Positions 708 through 9,594 of a stretch of 10,873 bases of DNA are shown in pieces. Under the pieces are notes generated by a model. The model searched no databases. It was not told the origin of the DNA and worked only from the letters and a program-made list of their open reading frames with translations. The DNA is from Deltaproteobacteria bacterium (GTDB taxonomy: Bacteria; UBA10199; SBBF01): assembly GCA_016207765.1 (NCBI GenBank), contig JACQOY010000121.1, forward strand, positions 1-10,873, in the 5' to 3' direction. Both the position numbers and the translations under genes were made by a program. The first letter of the stretch is position 1; the number at the start of each line of letters is the position of its first letter.

Positions 708-730
708 GGGGTTCTCCGACACGCCCCTAC
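708..730 (-). repeat. REP-like GTAGGGGCG element edge at the TPR gene stop
   Basis: On the minus strand this reads CTGTAGGGGCGTGTCGG and continues to an ACCCC block, allowing only a weak GGGG/CCCC hairpin. Its first bases are the same TGTAGGGGCG edge seen after dapB, dapA and dapF. The TAG at 729-727 is the stop codon of the TPR lipoprotein gene. It appears to be a decayed or one-sided copy of the REP-like family. Confidence 0.65.
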
Positions 731-2346
731 AGATTGCTGATTTTTTCCCGTATACGCCTGATCTGCTCTTCATCCCGCGGATCGCGGTTTTCTTTTTTGT
801 TCAGCACAAAAAGGGATTTTTCAAAGAACTGCCGCGCCAGCCGCTTGTTTTGTTTTCGGAGATAAACCTCCGCCAGATGCTCGAGTATGGTCGGCTCGTC
901 GGGGCTCAAACGGTTGGCTTTTTCGAGCAAATCAAGCGCTTGGTCGTAATTCCCCTTTTGAAAGTAAACCCAGGCAAGGCTGTCCATAATATAGCCGTCG
1001 TCCGGTTTGAGCTTCAGGGCTTGCCCAACCAGGTTTTCGGCCTCGTCAAGGTTTACCCCCCGCTCAGCGTAGGTGTAGCCGACAAAATTGAGCGCCGACG
1101 CGTTGTTGGCATTCAGCTTGATGACTTCTTTCATGTACCGAAGGCTTCCATCCCAATCCCCCATCTTTTCCATAACCACCCCCAGGGAAAAAAGGAGGTT
1201 TTCGTTATTGGGAATCTGCCTTATTCCGATCTTCAACACCCCCACCGCCTCCGAATATTTCTTTTCGAGAACGTAAAGAGAGGCAACCAAGTCGTAGAAG
1301 TCGGACGTTTTTGGGTTCTTCTCCATCACCTTTCGGGCAAGTTCAAAGGCGCGTTGCATCTGGTTTGAATTTTTAAACAACACCACCTCCCGGATTACGG
1401 CATCGACATAGAAAGTCGATTCGGGCTTGATGGCCGAAAACCGGGCAAGGGCCTTCTCGTCGTCCTTTTTCTCCTGATAAAGAAGACCAAGATAGTAGAG
1501 CACGCGGTCCGATTCCGGGTTTGTCTCGAGAATCCCTTCAAACTCGGCAATGGCGCGGTCAATATCCTTCAATTCATAATACAGGAGGGCCATCCGCGCC
1601 TGGATGGCGGTGTCGTCGGGGTTTATCTCCATCAATTTGGAAAGCACATCGAGTGCCTTGCGATAATCTTTCTGAGCCAGATGGATTTCGGAAATAATCT
1701 GCAGAATTTTCGGGTTGTCCGGATCCTGGTCGAGCAGTTTCTGGTAAGCGGCAATCGCCTTGGGATAGTCTTTTTCCACCGTGGCGTAAATGCTTCCCAG
1801 ATAAAAGTAGGCCGAAAGGGCCTCCGGATTTTCTTCAATCAATTTCTTGAGAACCTGAACGGCCTTTTTTGTCTCGTCCAATCCCATATATTCACGCGCC
1901 AGCATCGTGGCCGCTTCCTCGTTTTTCGGGTCGAGGGCGATCACTTTCTGATAATGAACAATGGAACGACCGCTGTCTTTTTGCGTGGAATAAATTTTGG
2001 CCAAAAGAAGGTTGAGTTCGGCGTTTTCCGGATTTTGATGATAAGCCTGAAGAGCCAGTTTTTCCGCCTCTTCGAGCTTGTTCTGCCGTGCCAATTGATA
2101 GGCCTTGCCGGTGATCAGATAGGTGGAATCGGGATTTTTGGTTATGGCCTTGTCGAGATAAAAAAGGGACCGATCCGCCTCCCCCTCAAGCGCCTGAAGC
2201 TCCGATATGACGTAATAATAGAGGCTGTTCCCCTTCTTCGATTCAACCCCTTTCAAGGATCCGGCGCCTTCCCTTTTGGGAGCATGTGCGCACTGCGTCA
2301 AAGAAAGGAGAAAAAAGAGGAAAACAAGAAAATTTTTCAAATCCAT
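727..2346 (-). CDS. TPR-repeat lipoprotein, 14 tandem TPRs
   Basis: A 539-residue protein with an N-terminal lipoprotein-type signal: hydrophobic residues 5-16, then L16-T17-Q18-C19. The Gln at -1 is unusual, but the Cys followed by a polar stretch supports lipidation. From about residue 39 to 510 the protein is essentially all tetratricopeptide repeats of about 34 residues; I count 14, most ending in the helix-breaking NP[DENK] of the consensus (for example ALDPK, EINPD, ETNPE, LKPDD). The C-terminal 20 residues are highly charged. TPR superhelices are protein-protein scaffolds; this one probably faces the periplasm from the outer membrane. The partner is unknown, though linkage to a LolA/LolB-like gene suggests an envelope role. 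No clear Shine-Dalgarno precedes ATG 2346. The stop is TAG inside a REP-like repeat edge. It follows dapB by 100 bp and is probably in the same transcript. Confidence 0.9.
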   Translation of the reverse strand: MDLKNFLVFLFFLLSLTQCAHAPKREGAGSLKGVESKKGNSLYYYVISELQALEGEADRSLFYLDKAITKNPDSTYLITGKAYQLARQNKLEEAEKLALQAYHQNPENAELNLLLAKIYSTQKDSGRSIVHYQKVIALDPKNEEAATMLAREYMGLDETKKAVQVLKKLIEENPEALSAYFYLGSIYATVEKDYPKAIAAYQKLLDQDPDNPKILQIISEIHLAQKDYRKALDVLSKLMEINPDDTAIQARMALLYYELKDIDRAIAEFEGILETNPESDRVLYYLGLLYQEKKDDEKALARFSAIKPESTFYVDAVIREVVLFKNSNQMQRAFELARKVMEKNPKTSDFYDLVASLYVLEKKYSEAVGVLKIGIRQIPNNENLLFSLGVVMEKMGDWDGSLRYMKEVIKLNANNASALNFVGYTYAERGVNLDEAENLVGQALKLKPDDGYIMDSLAWVYFQKGNYDQALDLLEKANRLSPDEPTILEHLAEVYLRKQNKRLARQFFEKSLFVLNKKENRDPRDEEQIRRIREKISNL

Positions 2347-2393
2347 TGCTATAACAATTAGAACACGAAAGATCGGTGCAAATCAACGTCCGC

Positions 2394-2450
2394 GTAGGGG
2401 CGATCCTCGTGATCGCCCTACGGTTGGACGAACACAAGGTTCGCCCCTAC
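2394..2450. repeat. Composite REP-like element, two hairpins, after dapB
   Basis: The outer ends are inverted: GTAGGGGCGA at 2394-2403 and TCGCCCCTAC at 2441-2450. Inside are two hairpins. One (2394-2421) pairs GTAGGGGCGATC with GATCGCCCTAC around CTCGT, with a single bulged base. The other (2427-2447) reads on the minus strand GGGCGAAC-CTTGT-GTTCGTCC with one G-U pair. On the minus strand each hairpin is headed by GTAG. The dapB stop codon (2449-2447) is the TAG of the outer edge. It occupies about half of the 100-bp gap to the TPR gene. Confidence 0.8.
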
Positions 2451-3283
2451 AAACCCAACACATCCCCCATATCGTAAAGACCGGGCTTCCGACCAGAGAC
2501 CCATAGAGCGGCGCGAAGGGCCCCATCGGCAAAGGTGGCGCGCGAAGTCGCTGTATGCCGGATTTCCAGCCGCTCCCCAATCCCACAGTAGAAAACGGTG
2601 TGTTCCCCGACGATGTCGCCCCCACGGATAACCTGCATGCCGATTTCGCGCGGCTGACGCTCACCAATCACCCCCTGCCGGTGAAAATTAATATCCTGCG
2701 GGTAACGGCGGCCGGTCGCCTCCGCCAGAATCTCGGCGATACGGACGGCCGTTCCGGAAGGGGCGTCCTTTTTCAACCGGTGATGCGCCTCGAGAATTTC
2801 GAGATCGTACCCGTTCCCAAGAACCTTCGCGGCATCGGCGACCAGTTTGAAAAGCGTGTTCACCCCCACACTCATGTTGGGAGACAACACCACCGGAATT
2901 TTCCGGACGGTGTTGCGAATCACCGTTTGATGATCGGCCGAAAGGCCGGTCGTACCGATAACCATGGGGCACCCGTATGCGGCGCCCGTTTTCACATTAT
3001 CAAGCGTCGCCGTGGCTTCAGAGAAATCGATGATGACGGGGCGGTCTTTGCCGCCTGCTCCCTTCGCCTTGCAAACCTCCTCAAGTGAGGACGCAATGGC
3101 AACCCCCAGCGAACCGATCCCGGCAATCAGCCCGGCATCCTCGCCGACAGCCTTTGAGCCGGAATGCTCCGTGGCCCCGACAAGCTTGAATTCTTTTTTT
3201 CCGGCGGCCGGCGCCAATGACGCCTGCGCGAGAATGGTCTTTCCCATTCTGCCCGCCGCACCGGTGACAATGATTGGAATCAT
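2447..3283 (-). CDS. dapB: 4-hydroxy-tetrahydrodipicolinate reductase
   Basis: Reduces hydroxy-tetrahydrodipicolinate, the DapA product, to tetrahydrodipicolinate with NAD(P)H, in the cytoplasm. At 278 residues it is of normal length. The nucleotide-binding loop VTGAAGRMG is at residues 6-14, and the family signature EAHHRLKKDAPSGTA at 165-179 carries the probable acid/base His167 and Lys171 (E. coli His159/Lys163). VIGTTGL at 108-114 and the C-terminal DMGDVLGL are also typical. Start at 3283 because MIPIIVTGAAGRMG is the usual N-terminus; an upstream in-frame ATG would translate the preceding repeat. No Shine-Dalgarno is visible: the start follows the repeat end and an A/T run. The stop TAG is the first part of a REP-like element. 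It lies 55 bp after dapA. Confidence 0.96.
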   Translation of the reverse strand: MIPIIVTGAAGRMGKTILAQASLAPAAGKKEFKLVGATEHSGSKAVGEDAGLIAGIGSLGVAIASSLEEVCKAKGAGGKDRPVIIDFSEATATLDNVKTGAAYGCPMVIGTTGLSADHQTVIRNTVRKIPVVLSPNMSVGVNTLFKLVADAAKVLGNGYDLEILEAHHRLKKDAPSGTAVRIAEILAEATGRRYPQDINFHRQGVIGERQPREIGMQVIRGGDIVGEHTVFYCGIGERLEIRHTATSRATFADGALRAALWVSGRKPGLYDMGDVLGL

Positions 3284-3290
3284 ATATTTT

Positions 3291-3344
3291 TTGTACGGGC
3301 GTACAGCCCCAAAGGGACCACTTCGTGGCCGTACGCCCCTACAA
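3291..3344 (-). repeat. 54-bp palindromic REP/MITE-like element between dapA and dapB
   Basis: Ends TTGTACGGGCGTAC and GTACGCCCCTACAA form 14-bp terminal inverted repeats with one mismatch. An inner hairpin pairs CCAC with GTGG around TTC, and a small CCC-AAA-GGG-type fold sits beside it. It is the same as the element at 4225-4279 except for one missing A. Read in the direction of the operon it begins TTGTAGGGGCG, and that TAG (3341-3339) is the dapA stop codon. It ends 7 bases before the dapB ATG. No target-site duplication is obvious. Confidence 0.88.
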
Positions 3345-4214
3345 CAATCCATAATTTTGTAGCGCCTGCTTCAATTTTTCACGATTCTCCCTTGATATCG
3401 GCGTCAACGGCAGGCGATATTCCTCCTCAACCTTCCCCATGAGGGCCAGCGCCGCCTTGACCGGAATGGGATTGGTCTCCAAAAACATGACCCGATGAAG
3501 GGGCATCAATTTTTCGTGGATCTCGGCCCCTTTTTTCAAGTCCCCCGAACGATAATATGCCCACTGCTCAGCCGCCTCGCGGGGGACGATATTGGCCGTC
3601 ACCGAAATCGTGCCGACCCCCCCTTTCGTCCTGATCTCGTGATTAAGGGCGTCTTCTCCAGAAATAACCGCAAAATTTTTCGGACACAACCGGATAATTT
3701 CCTCCACCTGGGCCAGATTTCCGGAAGCCTCCTTGACGCCGACGATGTTTTTGATTTCGCCCAGCCGCGCCACCGTTTCGGGCAACATGTTCACCGCCGT
3801 CCGCCCCGGCACGTTGTAGAGGACCACCGGAAGAGGGGATGCCTCCGCTACCGCCTTGAAGTGTTGAAACAAACCTTCCTGCGTCGGCTTGTTGTAATAG
3901 GGGGTCACCTGGAGGGTGCCGTCGGCCCCCGCTTTTTGCGAAGCGCGGGTGAGATCGATCGCCTCATGCGTGGCATTAGCCCCCGCCCCGGCCAAAACCT
4001 TCACCTTTTTTGCCGCCTGTTCGACGACAATTTTGATGACCCGGATGTGTTCTTCGGTGGTAAGCGTCGCCGACTCACCGGTGGTGCCGCAGGGGACAAG
4101 AACGTTCGTCCCCGACTGCACATGCCAATCGACCAGTCTGCGCAATGCGGCTTCATCAACCTTCCCCTTCTTGAAAGGGGTCACTAATGCAACCATTGAG
4201 CCGGTAAATATCAT
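3339..4214 (-). CDS. dapA: 4-hydroxy-tetrahydrodipicolinate synthase
   Basis: Condenses pyruvate with aspartate semialdehyde, the first step of the diaminopimelate/lysine branch; a TIM-barrel lyase with a Schiff-base lysine. At 291 residues it has the same length and residue numbering as the E. coli enzyme: Thr44-Thr45 in PCGTTGES, Tyr107 in TPYYNKP, Tyr133 and Arg138 in YNVPGRT, and the Schiff-base Lys161 in GVKEASGN. All catalytic residues are present. Start at 4214 (MIFTGSMVALVTPF) fits the family; an AAAAGG stretch about 6 bases upstream is a fair Shine-Dalgarno and abuts the end of the preceding repeat. The C-terminus YGLL resembles the usual family end, and the TAG stop belongs to a REP-like element. 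It lies 59 bp after dapF, nearly all of it repeat. Confidence 0.98.
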   Translation of the reverse strand: MIFTGSMVALVTPFKKGKVDEAALRRLVDWHVQSGTNVLVPCGTTGESATLTTEEHIRVIKIVVEQAAKKVKVLAGAGANATHEAIDLTRASQKAGADGTLQVTPYYNKPTQEGLFQHFKAVAEASPLPVVLYNVPGRTAVNMLPETVARLGEIKNIVGVKEASGNLAQVEEIIRLCPKNFAVISGEDALNHEIRTKGGVGTISVTANIVPREAAEQWAYYRSGDLKKGAEIHEKLMPLHRVMFLETNPIPVKAALALMGKVEEEYRLPLTPISRENREKLKQALQNYGLL

Positions 4215-4224
4215 AATTCGCCTT

Positions 4225-4279
4225 TTGTACGGGCGTACAAGCCCCAAAGGGACCACTTCGTGGCCGTACGCCCCTACAA
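4225..4279 (-). repeat. 55-bp palindromic REP/MITE-like element between dapF and dapA
   Basis: Near-identical to the copy at 3291-3344 (one extra A). It has terminal inverted repeats TTGTACGGGCGTAC / GTACGCCCCTACAA and an internal CCAC-TTC-GTGG hairpin. In operon direction the edge TTGTAGGGGCG supplies the last Leu and TAG stop of dapF (4276-4274). Its other end lies next to the dapA Shine-Dalgarno, so the folded RNA could affect dapA translation. Confidence 0.88.
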
Positions 4280-5110
4280 ATCAATCTCCCCTTCAAACAC
4301 CGTGGTCGCGGGACCGGTCTTGAAGACAGTACCGCTCGACTCGTCCCATAAAATCTCCAGATCGCCCCCTCGCAAATGAACGGTCACGGCGCGATCGGTT
4401 TTATTGTTGAGAACCGAGGCGACAACAGCGGCGGCGGCCCCCGTGCCGCAAGCCGGCGTTTCTCCGGCTCCCCGCTCCCACACCCTCATCCGGATATTTT
4501 TTTTATCCATCACATTGACAAATTCCACGTTCACCCGGTTGGGGAAAAAGGGATCGTTTTCAATCTGCGGGCCGGTCTTTTCCACTTCAACCGCCTCGAC
4601 ATGATCGACAAAAACAACACAGTGCGGGTTTCCCATCGAAAGACAGGTGACCCGATACCCCAACAACGGCTGATTGATCACCAATCCGTCGCGGTTGACC
4701 GGAATATCTCGTCCCTCCAGCACCGGTTTCCCCATATCCACCTTCACCCATACCGTCCGGGCGGTATTGCGGGGATGGTTGGGAAGAAGTTCCGGATAGA
4801 TCATCCCCGCCATGGTTTCAACCGCCAGCGCGGTCTTGGAGGCAAGCCTTGAATCACGCACATATTTGGCGAAACAGCGGATGCCGTTGCCGCACATCTC
4901 CACCTTGCCGCCATCGGCGTTGTAAATATCCATCCGGAAGTCCCCCTGGTCTGACGGCGCCGCAACAAGCATCTGATCGGCGCCGATGCCAAAACGGCGG
5001 TCGCACAATTTTTTGGCTGTCGCCGGGGGATTTTCGATCGGCTGTTCCATGGCATTGAGGAGGACAAAATCGTTTCCGGCTCCCTGCATTTTGGTAAATG
5101 GTAATTTCAT
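4274..5110 (-). CDS. dapF: Diaminopimelate epimerase
   Basis: Interconverts LL- and meso-diaminopimelate by a two-cysteine, cofactor-free mechanism. It is 278 residues, the normal length. The first catalytic Cys73 lies in NADGGKVEMCGNGIRC (residues 64-79) and the second, Cys221, in ERGAGETPACGTGAAAA (212-228). The N-terminal FTKMQGAGNDFV motif is at 5-16 and the SMGNPHCV motif at 158-165. The ATG overlaps the lysA stop as ATGA, so translation is probably coupled. There is only a weak G-rich ribosome-binding stretch. The stop TAG and the preceding Leu codon are part of the downstream repeat. The product feeds LysA directly and also the peptidoglycan precursor pathway. Confidence 0.98.
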   Translation of the reverse strand: MKLPFTKMQGAGNDFVLLNAMEQPIENPPATAKKLCDRRFGIGADQMLVAAPSDQGDFRMDIYNADGGKVEMCGNGIRCFAKYVRDSRLASKTALAVETMAGMIYPELLPNHPRNTARTVWVKVDMGKPVLEGRDIPVNRDGLVINQPLLGYRVTCLSMGNPHCVVFVDHVEAVEVEKTGPQIENDPFFPNRVNVEFVNVMDKKNIRMRVWERGAGETPACGTGAAAAVVASVLNNKTDRAVTVHLRGGDLEILWDESSGTVFKTGPATTVFEGEIDL

Positions 5111-8010: not shown

Positions 8011-9576
8011 ATGTCATCATCCGACTCCAGATCCAACGGCCGCACCGGGGGCATTCGGGAATATACCCCTCCTCCGCGCCGCCGCTCCCCCATAGGCACA
8101 GGCAGAAAACCTTTTGGCAAACCGACCGACCGCGACGACCCTTTAATGCCGATGCCCAACTCGGGTCCGGCGCCCGATTACAGCCGCACCGACGGGCCGA
8201 AGCCTCCTCCTCCCAGTGAACCGGCGGGAGAAAACGGGAGCGGCGAACAACCTTCCCAAGCCAACTCTGTTTCAAAAGCCCCGGTGGAAGAGCATCCGCC
8301 GCTGGCCAGCTTTTTCAAGGGGGGGGTGATGTATCTCAAGGATTTAAAACTTGTCAAAATAGCCGATCTTATCCACCTCGCCCGCGAATTCGGCATTGAA
8401 GGGGCCGCCGGCATGAAGCGGCAGGAACTGATCTTCTCCCTTCTGAAAGCCCAGACCGACCAGCAGGGGGCAATTTACGGAGAAGGGGTTCTGGAAACAC
8501 TCCCGGATGGATTCGGATTTTTGCGTTCCGGCGATTTCAGCTATCTTCCGGGGCCCGACGACATCTACGTTTCACCCTCCCAGATCCGGCGGTTCAACCT
8601 GAGAACCGGCGATACCGTTTCGGGTCAGATCCGTCCCCCCAAGGACGGCGAGCGTTATTTTGCCCTTCTGAAAGTGGAGCAGGTGAATTTCGAGGACGCC
8701 GAACTGGCGCGCGACAAAATCCTGTTCGACAACCTGACCCCTCTCTACCCCAACGAACGGTTCAATCTCGAATTCGACCCGAAAAATTACACGACGCGGA
8801 TCATCGATCTGCTGACGCCTTTGGGCAAAGGACAGAGAAGCCTCATTGTCGCCCCGCCCCGCACCGGAAAGACCATGATGTTGCAGAACATCGCCAACGC
8901 CATTTCGGCCAATCATCCGGAGGTTGTGCTAATCGTCCTGTTGATTGACGAAAGACCTGAAGAGGTCACCGACATGGAACGTTCGGTGAAAGGGGAAGTC
9001 ATCAGTTCCACGTTTGACGAACCGGCCACGCGCCATGTGCAGGTGGCCGAGATGGTGATCGAAAAAGCCAAGCGGCTGGTGGAGCACAAAAAGGATGTGG
9101 TGATTCTCTTGGACAGCATCACCCGCCTGGCGCGGGCCTACAATACGGTGGTGCCCCCTTCGGGGAAAATTCTCTCCGGCGGTGTGGACTCCAACGCCCT
9201 GCACAAGCCGAAGCGTTTCTTCGGCGCCGCCCGGAATATCGAGGAAGGGGGGTCGCTCACGATTGTGGCCACCGCCCTGATCGACACCGGTTCGCGGATG
9301 GACGAGGTGATTTTCGAGGAATTCAAGGGAACCGGCAATTCCGAAATCGCTCTCGACCGCAAGCTGATGGAAAAACGGATATTCCCCTGCATGGATGTGA
9401 ACGCCTCCGGCACGCGGAAAGAAGAACTCCTGCAACCCGAAGACGTCTTGAACCGCGTCTGGGTTCTGCGGAAGCTCCTTCATCCGCTCAACGTGCTCGA
9501 TACGATGGAATTTCTGATTGATAAAATGCAGGGGACGAAGAACAACAAGGACTTTCTGGAGTCGATGAATAAATAA
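8011..9576 (+). CDS. rho: Transcription termination factor Rho, with N-terminal extension
   Basis: Hexameric RNA-dependent ATPase that ends transcription. It has 521 residues against about 419 in E. coli. Residues 1-106 are a Pro/Ser/Gly/Arg-rich, probably disordered extension. The canonical start [13 protein letters not shown] begins at 108. The RNA-binding cold-shock-like domain follows (about 155-227, GFGFLR at 167-172). The ATPase has Walker A APPRTGKT (281-288; E. coli has Lys where Arg284 stands), the catalytic [10 protein letters not shown] (313-322), Walker [17 protein letters not shown] (363-378) and the [10 protein letters not shown]-terminal motif (466-474). All key residues are present. 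The ATG at 8011 has no Shine-Dalgarno, whereas the internal ATG at 8329 has a strong one, so a 415-residue form is also possible. The stop TAA is followed at once by a REP-like TGTAGGGGC. Confidence 0.96.
8317..8331 (+). promoter_or_regulatory. Strong internal ribosome-binding site and ATG in rho
   Basis: AAGGGGGGGG at 8317-8326 is followed by TG and the ATG at 8329-8331. AAGGGG sits about 6 bases from the ATG, a good Shine-Dalgarno arrangement, while the upstream ATG at 8011 has none. Initiation here would give [14 protein letters not shown], the normal N-terminus of Rho, and a protein of 415 residues. It may be the true start or an alternative one. Confidence 0.45.
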
Positions 9577-9594
9577 TGTAGGGGCAACCCTGCG
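9577..9594 (+). repeat. Partial REP-like edge between convergent genes
   Basis: TGTAGGGGCAACCCTGCG fills the entire 18-base gap between the rho TAA and the stop of the convergent NAGPA-family gene. The first nine bases match the element edge found after dapB, dapA and dapF; only a minimal hairpin can form. No intrinsic terminator for either gene is visible here. Confidence 0.5.

Follow-up and report, generated by a model that had tools for sequence, protein, structure and literature searches.

The TPR-dapB-dapA-dapF locus

The stretch of DNA analyzed here (the window, 10,873 nucleotides) is contig C63 of a 1.89-Mb MAG, the parent genome, which consists of 256 contigs and is 84% complete. On its minus strand the window carries a TPR-repeat protein gene (727..2346), dapB (2447..3283), dapA (3339..4214, with its start at 4214 or 4196), and dapF (4274..5110). 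An earlier note on this DNA had proposed that all four genes take their stop codons from the same repeat edge, YTGTAGGGGCG, and we confirmed this for each of them (4/4): the minus-strand TAG lies at 729-727, 2449-2447, 3341-3339, and 4276-4274, respectively. The same note had reported a fifth, partial copy after rho. This copy is present as well; the rho gene ends with TAA at 9574-9576 and the edge TGTAGGGGC follows from the next base on the plus strand (9577..9585).

The four copies take different forms. At the TPR stop there is a degenerate edge, GTAGGGGCG (722..730, minus strand), and no CGCCC partner arm or hairpin partner was visible downstream of it in the window sequence. The dapB stop lies in one half of an inverted REP dimer (2394..2450, minus strand; arms 2394-2421 and 2423-2450) with a predicted folding energy of -43.3 kcal/mol (z = -7.9). 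The dapA and dapF stops belong to single-hairpin GTAG...GTAC elements located at the junctions with the next gene. The element at the dapA/dapB junction (3293..3342, minus strand; predicted fold -37.3 kcal/mol, z = -6.3) is followed by nine bases and the dapB ATG (3283-3281), and the one at the dapF/dapA junction (4227..4277, minus strand) is followed by twelve bases and an ATG at 4214-4212. These two copies share 40 identical bases and belong to one repeat family (D2). An Rfam search of the window gave no match at gathering scores, and the dapA element had no match in phage sequences.

We compared the ends of these genes with those of relatives. The end codon of DapF is shared by 14 of the 15 relatives with a match, that of DapA by 13 of 16, and that of the TPR protein by five of the six with a match. 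DapB ends at the same codon in 5 of the 15 relatives with a match, and in nine of the ten others it is 1-3 residues longer. The dapA/dapB junction is an ATGA overlap in one relative, G001, as compared to the stop, hairpin, nine bases, and ATG of the window. The TPR gene of G001 (L269), the exception, lacks a stop where its relatives end and runs about 70 codons further into the region of the next gene. Another relative, G005, belongs to a different family of the same taxonomic order; its dapF and dapB genes also have GTAGGGGCG at their stops, and the copy at dapF differs in its core and has GTAC as its foot. The same stops were therefore used more than once, or the copies were retained while their cores changed.

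The repeat is a GTAG-class REP

The motif GTAGGGGCG occurs at 173 sites in the parent MAG, compared to 50 for the reversed motif, and TGTAGGGGCG occurs at 81 sites, compared to 5. We examined 162 of the 173 GTAGGGGCG sites, in 73 stretches, the remaining 11 lying outside those stretches. Because contigs beyond C156 were sampled by TGTAGGGGCG alone, the share of T-preceded sites (81/162) is somewhat inflated. Two further genomes from the parent's family, each of another genus, contributed 80 of 98 sites (G002) and 46 of 65 (G001).

Each element consists of a GTAG foot followed by a GGGCG...CGCCC hairpin, and occurs singly or as an inverted dimer. Single hairpins have, opposite the GTAG foot, a far foot that is CTAC, GTAC, or TTAC; dimers such as that at 2394-2450 are frequent in the junctions of G001 and G002. 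A complementary arm was found within 75 nt of 249 of the 288 GTAGGGGCG sites in the three genomes, and none at the other 39. These numbers support the earlier description of a REP-like, GTAG-footed palindrome. With GTAG at the foot of the palindrome, a high and mostly intergenic copy number (114 of the 162 sites examined in the parent), and both singles and dimers, the repeat is a GTAG-class REP.

Relatives commonly carry it: TGTAGGGGCG was present in 34 of the 40 genomes searched, the parent included. Within one class, six genomes had no copy whereas G028, the sole genome of its genus, had 197. A wide sample of 80 dapA loci (896 kb) contained 14 GTAGGGGCG sites, one of which (L172) ends a long open frame, without a hairpin after it. 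The same kind of GTAGGGGCG palindrome was seen in MAGs titled Desulfacinum, Nitrospirota, and Planctomycetota (L114, L117, and L120), and one 28-mer of L120 is also present in the parent genome. The parent and a second genus are 100% identical at one repeat junction and the gene belonging to it (L083 and L262), which reflects either recent transfer or a binning error.

Repeat feet dock on stop codons

Genes were called with a purpose-written hexamer script, a non-standard gene caller. In the parent, the TAG of 48 of the 162 GTAGGGGCG sites coincided exactly with the in-frame stop of a gene predicted on the same strand, compared to 41 of 1798 other GTAG tetramers (Fisher p = 3e-31). The bias to TAG stops over chance that the earlier note looked to find across the genome is therefore there. 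At 16 more sites in the parent a stop started 3-20 nt before the TAG. Exact stops were also obtained in the relatives (17/80 in G002 and 10/46 in G001). No gene read into a site and stopped within 60 nt after it at any of the 288 sites of the three genomes, and the reversed motif never served as an exact stop (0/18 in the parent, 0/14 and 0/15 in the two relatives). Sites of the form GTA[ACT]GGGCG were stops, necessarily TAA, in 5 of 46 cases in the parent.

It could be argued that a home-made gene caller, or chance, produced this pattern. We consider this almost certainly wrong: the gene ends are backed by orthologues with stops of their own, the reversed motif gave the zeros listed above, and the same caller found no exact stop among 41 GTAGG[CT]C[GT]G sites from a 300-kb sample of E. 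coli MG1655 (0/41 versus 48/162 in the parent, p = 6e-6). The docking pattern is real and strong, and within a known class of repeat it is an unusually clear case.

Orthologues point to replacement of the stop codon in place

To compare gene ends with and without the repeat, we used 44 reciprocal-best-hit pairs from three genera, each matching a gene with GTAGGGGC at its stop to an orthologue that lacks it there. Pairs had at least 50% identity and matched within 40 residues of both ends. They represent 35 repeat-bearing genes (20 from the parent, 10 from G002, and 5 from G001), and the full nine bases are at the stop in 36 of the 44. All comparisons cross genera; the relatives found included no genome of the window's own genus.

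The C-terminal length difference was zero in 25 pairs, at most one codon in 37, and at most three codons in 42; the repeat-bearing gene was shorter in 13 pairs and longer in 6. Among 372 background pairs, 51% showed zero difference and 64% a difference of at most one codon. Zero difference alone is therefore not in excess (57% versus 51%, p = 0.53), while the share within one codon is above background (p about 0.007, with the background count back-calculated from the rounded percentage). The case for exactness thus rests on the peak of offsets at the stop itself together with the one-codon share. Counting one partner per gene (n = 35) gave 21 pairs with zero difference and 30 within one codon. 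That no coding sequence was lost, as the earlier note had held, is supported by these ends.

The repeat-less partners used every stop codon: TGA in 18, TAA in 15, and TAG in 11 (14, 13, and 8 with one partner per gene), with zero difference in 10/18, 10/15, and 5/11 pairs, respectively. Since they end at nearly the same place whichever stop they use, the element replaces the stop at its ancestral position and docks independently of any pre-existing TAG. The orthologue comparison shows this step, and it bears out one of the two alternatives offered before, that the element replaces stop codons outright. The other alternative was that genes already ending in TGTAG serve as landing sites. TAG was somewhat commoner in the repeat-less partners than in the background (11/44 versus 53/372, p = 0.08); however, 33 of the 44 end with TGA or TAA and only 10 have a G before the stop. 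Landing on existing TAG stops was rejected on these grounds, and we regard it as very improbable.

Copies inside genes

Not all copies avoid coding sequence. We counted 28 two-footed copies inside genes on the coding strand, 18 in frame 0 and 10 in frame 1, the third frame being a stop by definition. Many of them encode VGAYCNTPLQ-like peptides in stretches that are also variable in relatives. At L080, L069, L095, L248, L265, and other loci, the peptides encoded by copies in a non-stop frame are of the VGA...TPLQ or RG...APT kind, and relatives show other insertions or length differences at these places. In a gene that we take, from its sequence, to be uvrC (L071 and L265), G001 carries a copy, and at the same point the parent's protein has a repeat-like peptide that is similar; this site is possibly an insertion hot spot.

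Mobilizing enzyme and target site

The earlier note had suggested searching the genome for a RAYT/Y1 transposase. We obtained no PF01797 (Y1) match in the parent MAG, at its 84% completeness, and the parent is one of five genomes without a match among the 40 searched (35 had one). Y1 presence and repeat counts were in no obvious accord; G018, for example, lacks a Y1 match but carries 19 sites. The sequence GTAGGGGC was absent from all eight Y1 loci examined in relatives, one of which (L109) carries an unrelated GTAG hairpin. A 70-aa Y1 fragment lies about 0.7 kb from a symmetric repeat copy in G001. As a Y1/RAYT gene flanked by the repeat was found neither in the parent MAG, which has no Y1 match, nor at the eight loci of relatives, which have no GTAGGGGC, we do not class the family as a REPtron.

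The flanks of 90 two-footed elements gave no clear signal of a motif or a target duplication. T was mildly overrepresented before GTAG, as was A following the far foot (49/90). A 2-bp TA target duplication would stay hidden because TA is contained within both feet.

Docking is strongest at crowded junctions

In 22 of the 44 repeat-less partners the next same-strand gene lies within 6 nt, compared to 176 of 641 in the background (p = 0.003), and 11 of the 44 have 4-nt overlaps. When the next gene was within 80 nt, 62 sites were exact stops, 19 lay 3-20 nt past the stop, and 4 lay 21-60 nt past it. When the next gene was more than 80 nt away the corresponding numbers were 13, 10, and 7. Crowding raises docking, yet it explains only part of it.

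These data bear on the possibility that insertion is random and that the peak at stops is simply the residue of purifying selection, copies inside genes persisting where they add residues to tolerant loops or bring a TAG in frame at the gene's end. Several observations favor this possibility. We found no target motif, and TGA, TAA, and TAG are all replaced, contrary to what a sequence target would lead one to expect. Docking peaks at tight junctions (62 exact versus 19 and 4), and copies inside genes occur in both non-stop frames. However, counted per position, the stop is hit far more often than the 18 positions from 3 to 20 nt after it even where there is room downstream (13 exact sites as compared to 10 over those positions), and truncations of a few codons are scarce although 36% of ordinary orthologues differ by more than one codon. 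We rate this explanation as less likely than the one preferred below.

The far foot depends on location

The far foot was scored at all 288 sites, symmetric copies being counted from both ends. Of 24 sites with GTAC, 20 were exact stops. In contrast, only 8 of the 68 sites with CTAC were exact, and 34 of these 68 were inside genes. TTAC was found at 14 sites (3 exact), an arm without such a foot at 143 (28 exact), and 16 of the 39 sites with no arm were exact. Leaving out copies inside genes, GTAC was exact at 20 of 23 sites and CTAC at 8 of 34 (p = 2.5e-6). The difference holds within the five cores that occur with both feet, where GTAC was exact in 10/11 and CTAC in 3/24 cases. A start codon lies within 15 nt of the element in most of the 20 exact GTAC copies. 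The G-G mismatch at the base of the stem costs a predicted 4 kcal/mol in the one pair that was folded. This dependence on location may result from selection on the mRNA or may be a product of insertion.

Another explanation for docking, favored by a far foot that follows location in this way, is that the stop-docked hairpin would be a functional 3'-end element, kept and enriched there by positive selection for mRNA stability, termination, or re-initiation within the operon. The proximity of start codons to the exact GTAC copies fits such a role, as does a report that translation in E. coli is lowered by REPs located no more than 15 nt from a stop (PMC12306157). Most copies, however, are undocked, the docked stops differ between genera, and 2 of the 20 exact GTAC copies represent the same stretch, identical in G001 and the parent. 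It is improbable that such a function would account for the docking.

Origin of the docked copies

The reading we prefer, with a probability of roughly 0.55, is that a GTAG-class REP family inserted at or near stop codons, that its foot became the new stop, and that both an insertion or retention preference and selection at gene junctions shaped the pattern. Copies have inserted at stop codons or within a base or two of them. The G of the foot became the last base of the final codon and its TAG the new stop, converting TGA, TAA, or TAG to TAG, so that protein length was kept, or nearly so; this much the orthologue pairs show. Two forces could be at work. Insertion or retention may favor the stop codon itself, even with the next gene far away. 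At tight or overlapping junctions, selection may in addition have picked the rare insertions with an in-frame stop in the foot, because these harm neither gene. Mobilization was probably by a RAYT/TnpA_REP-like Y1 enzyme, of which none was found in the parent MAG.

This reading is consistent with the exact stops in three genera, the 44 orthologue pairs, the DapF and DapA ends, the tight junctions, and the docking that persists when the next gene is distant. Against it are the zero-difference share, which is no higher than expected from background pairs (p = 0.53); the 13 pairs with shorter and six with longer repeat-bearing genes; the absence of a flank motif or duplication in the 90 elements that could be a targeting signal; the lack of Y1 in the parent MAG and of the repeat at eight Y1 loci; and the 0/41 result in E. 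coli.

A bolder and rather doubtful variant is that the palindrome seeks out the stop codon as such, of whatever type, and brings the replacement with it. Translation termination, or single-stranded DNA at that place, might be coupled to the step by which it does so. The far foot would then be set to GTAC wherever a start codon follows, and the element would act as an operon spacer that splits overlapping genes.

If docking is targeted, insertion preference would be set by gene function and not by a DNA motif. If purifying selection after random insertion is responsible, the data show how a repeat that brings a stop codon with it can persist in gene-dense operons. In both cases 4-nt gene overlaps are broken, and translational coupling may change.

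Comparison with known repeats

A literature search with the literal GTAGGGGCG gave, among the matches listed, titles on other subjects, and a search on palindromic elements with in-frame insertion found nothing. Further known work is given in PMC3116915 and PMC2817692.

Rickettsia palindromic elements (RPE), which are named in PMC3733652, resemble the repeat in that some copies lie in frame inside genes, but the repeat described here is commonly 28 bp, is GTAG-footed, and lies mostly between genes (114/162). The E. coli REPs associated with TnpA_REP/RAYT share the GTAG foot and hairpin and the inverted dimers. As described in PMC8266576, TnpA_REP requires GTAG and cleaves at CT or CA; E. coli has this known RAYT, whereas none was found in the parent MAG. 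The 0/41 control indicates that not all GTAG REPs supply stops.

The closest likeness is to the GTAG REP families of Di Nocera, De Gregorio, and Rocco (2013, PMC3733652). As far as their text describes them, these share with our repeat the GTAG end, the short stem-loop, singles and dimers, a location near gene 3' ends, and some copies inside genes. Compared through that text alone, our GGGGCG family is unassigned among their 24 consensus families. They state that GTAG REP termini "often provide" a TAG stop, which weakens the earlier note's view that a family systematically supplying stop codons would be unusual; on the other hand, the E. coli result shows that the supply is not universal. Our analysis puts numbers on this passing remark and distinguishes landing on TAG from replacing the stop. 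It includes stop counts, an orthologue test, and a far-foot rule, none of which appears in the text of PMC3733652 that we consulted, and beyond that text it adds a measured precision, the replacement of all three stops, the separation of overlapping genes, and a foot that depends on location.
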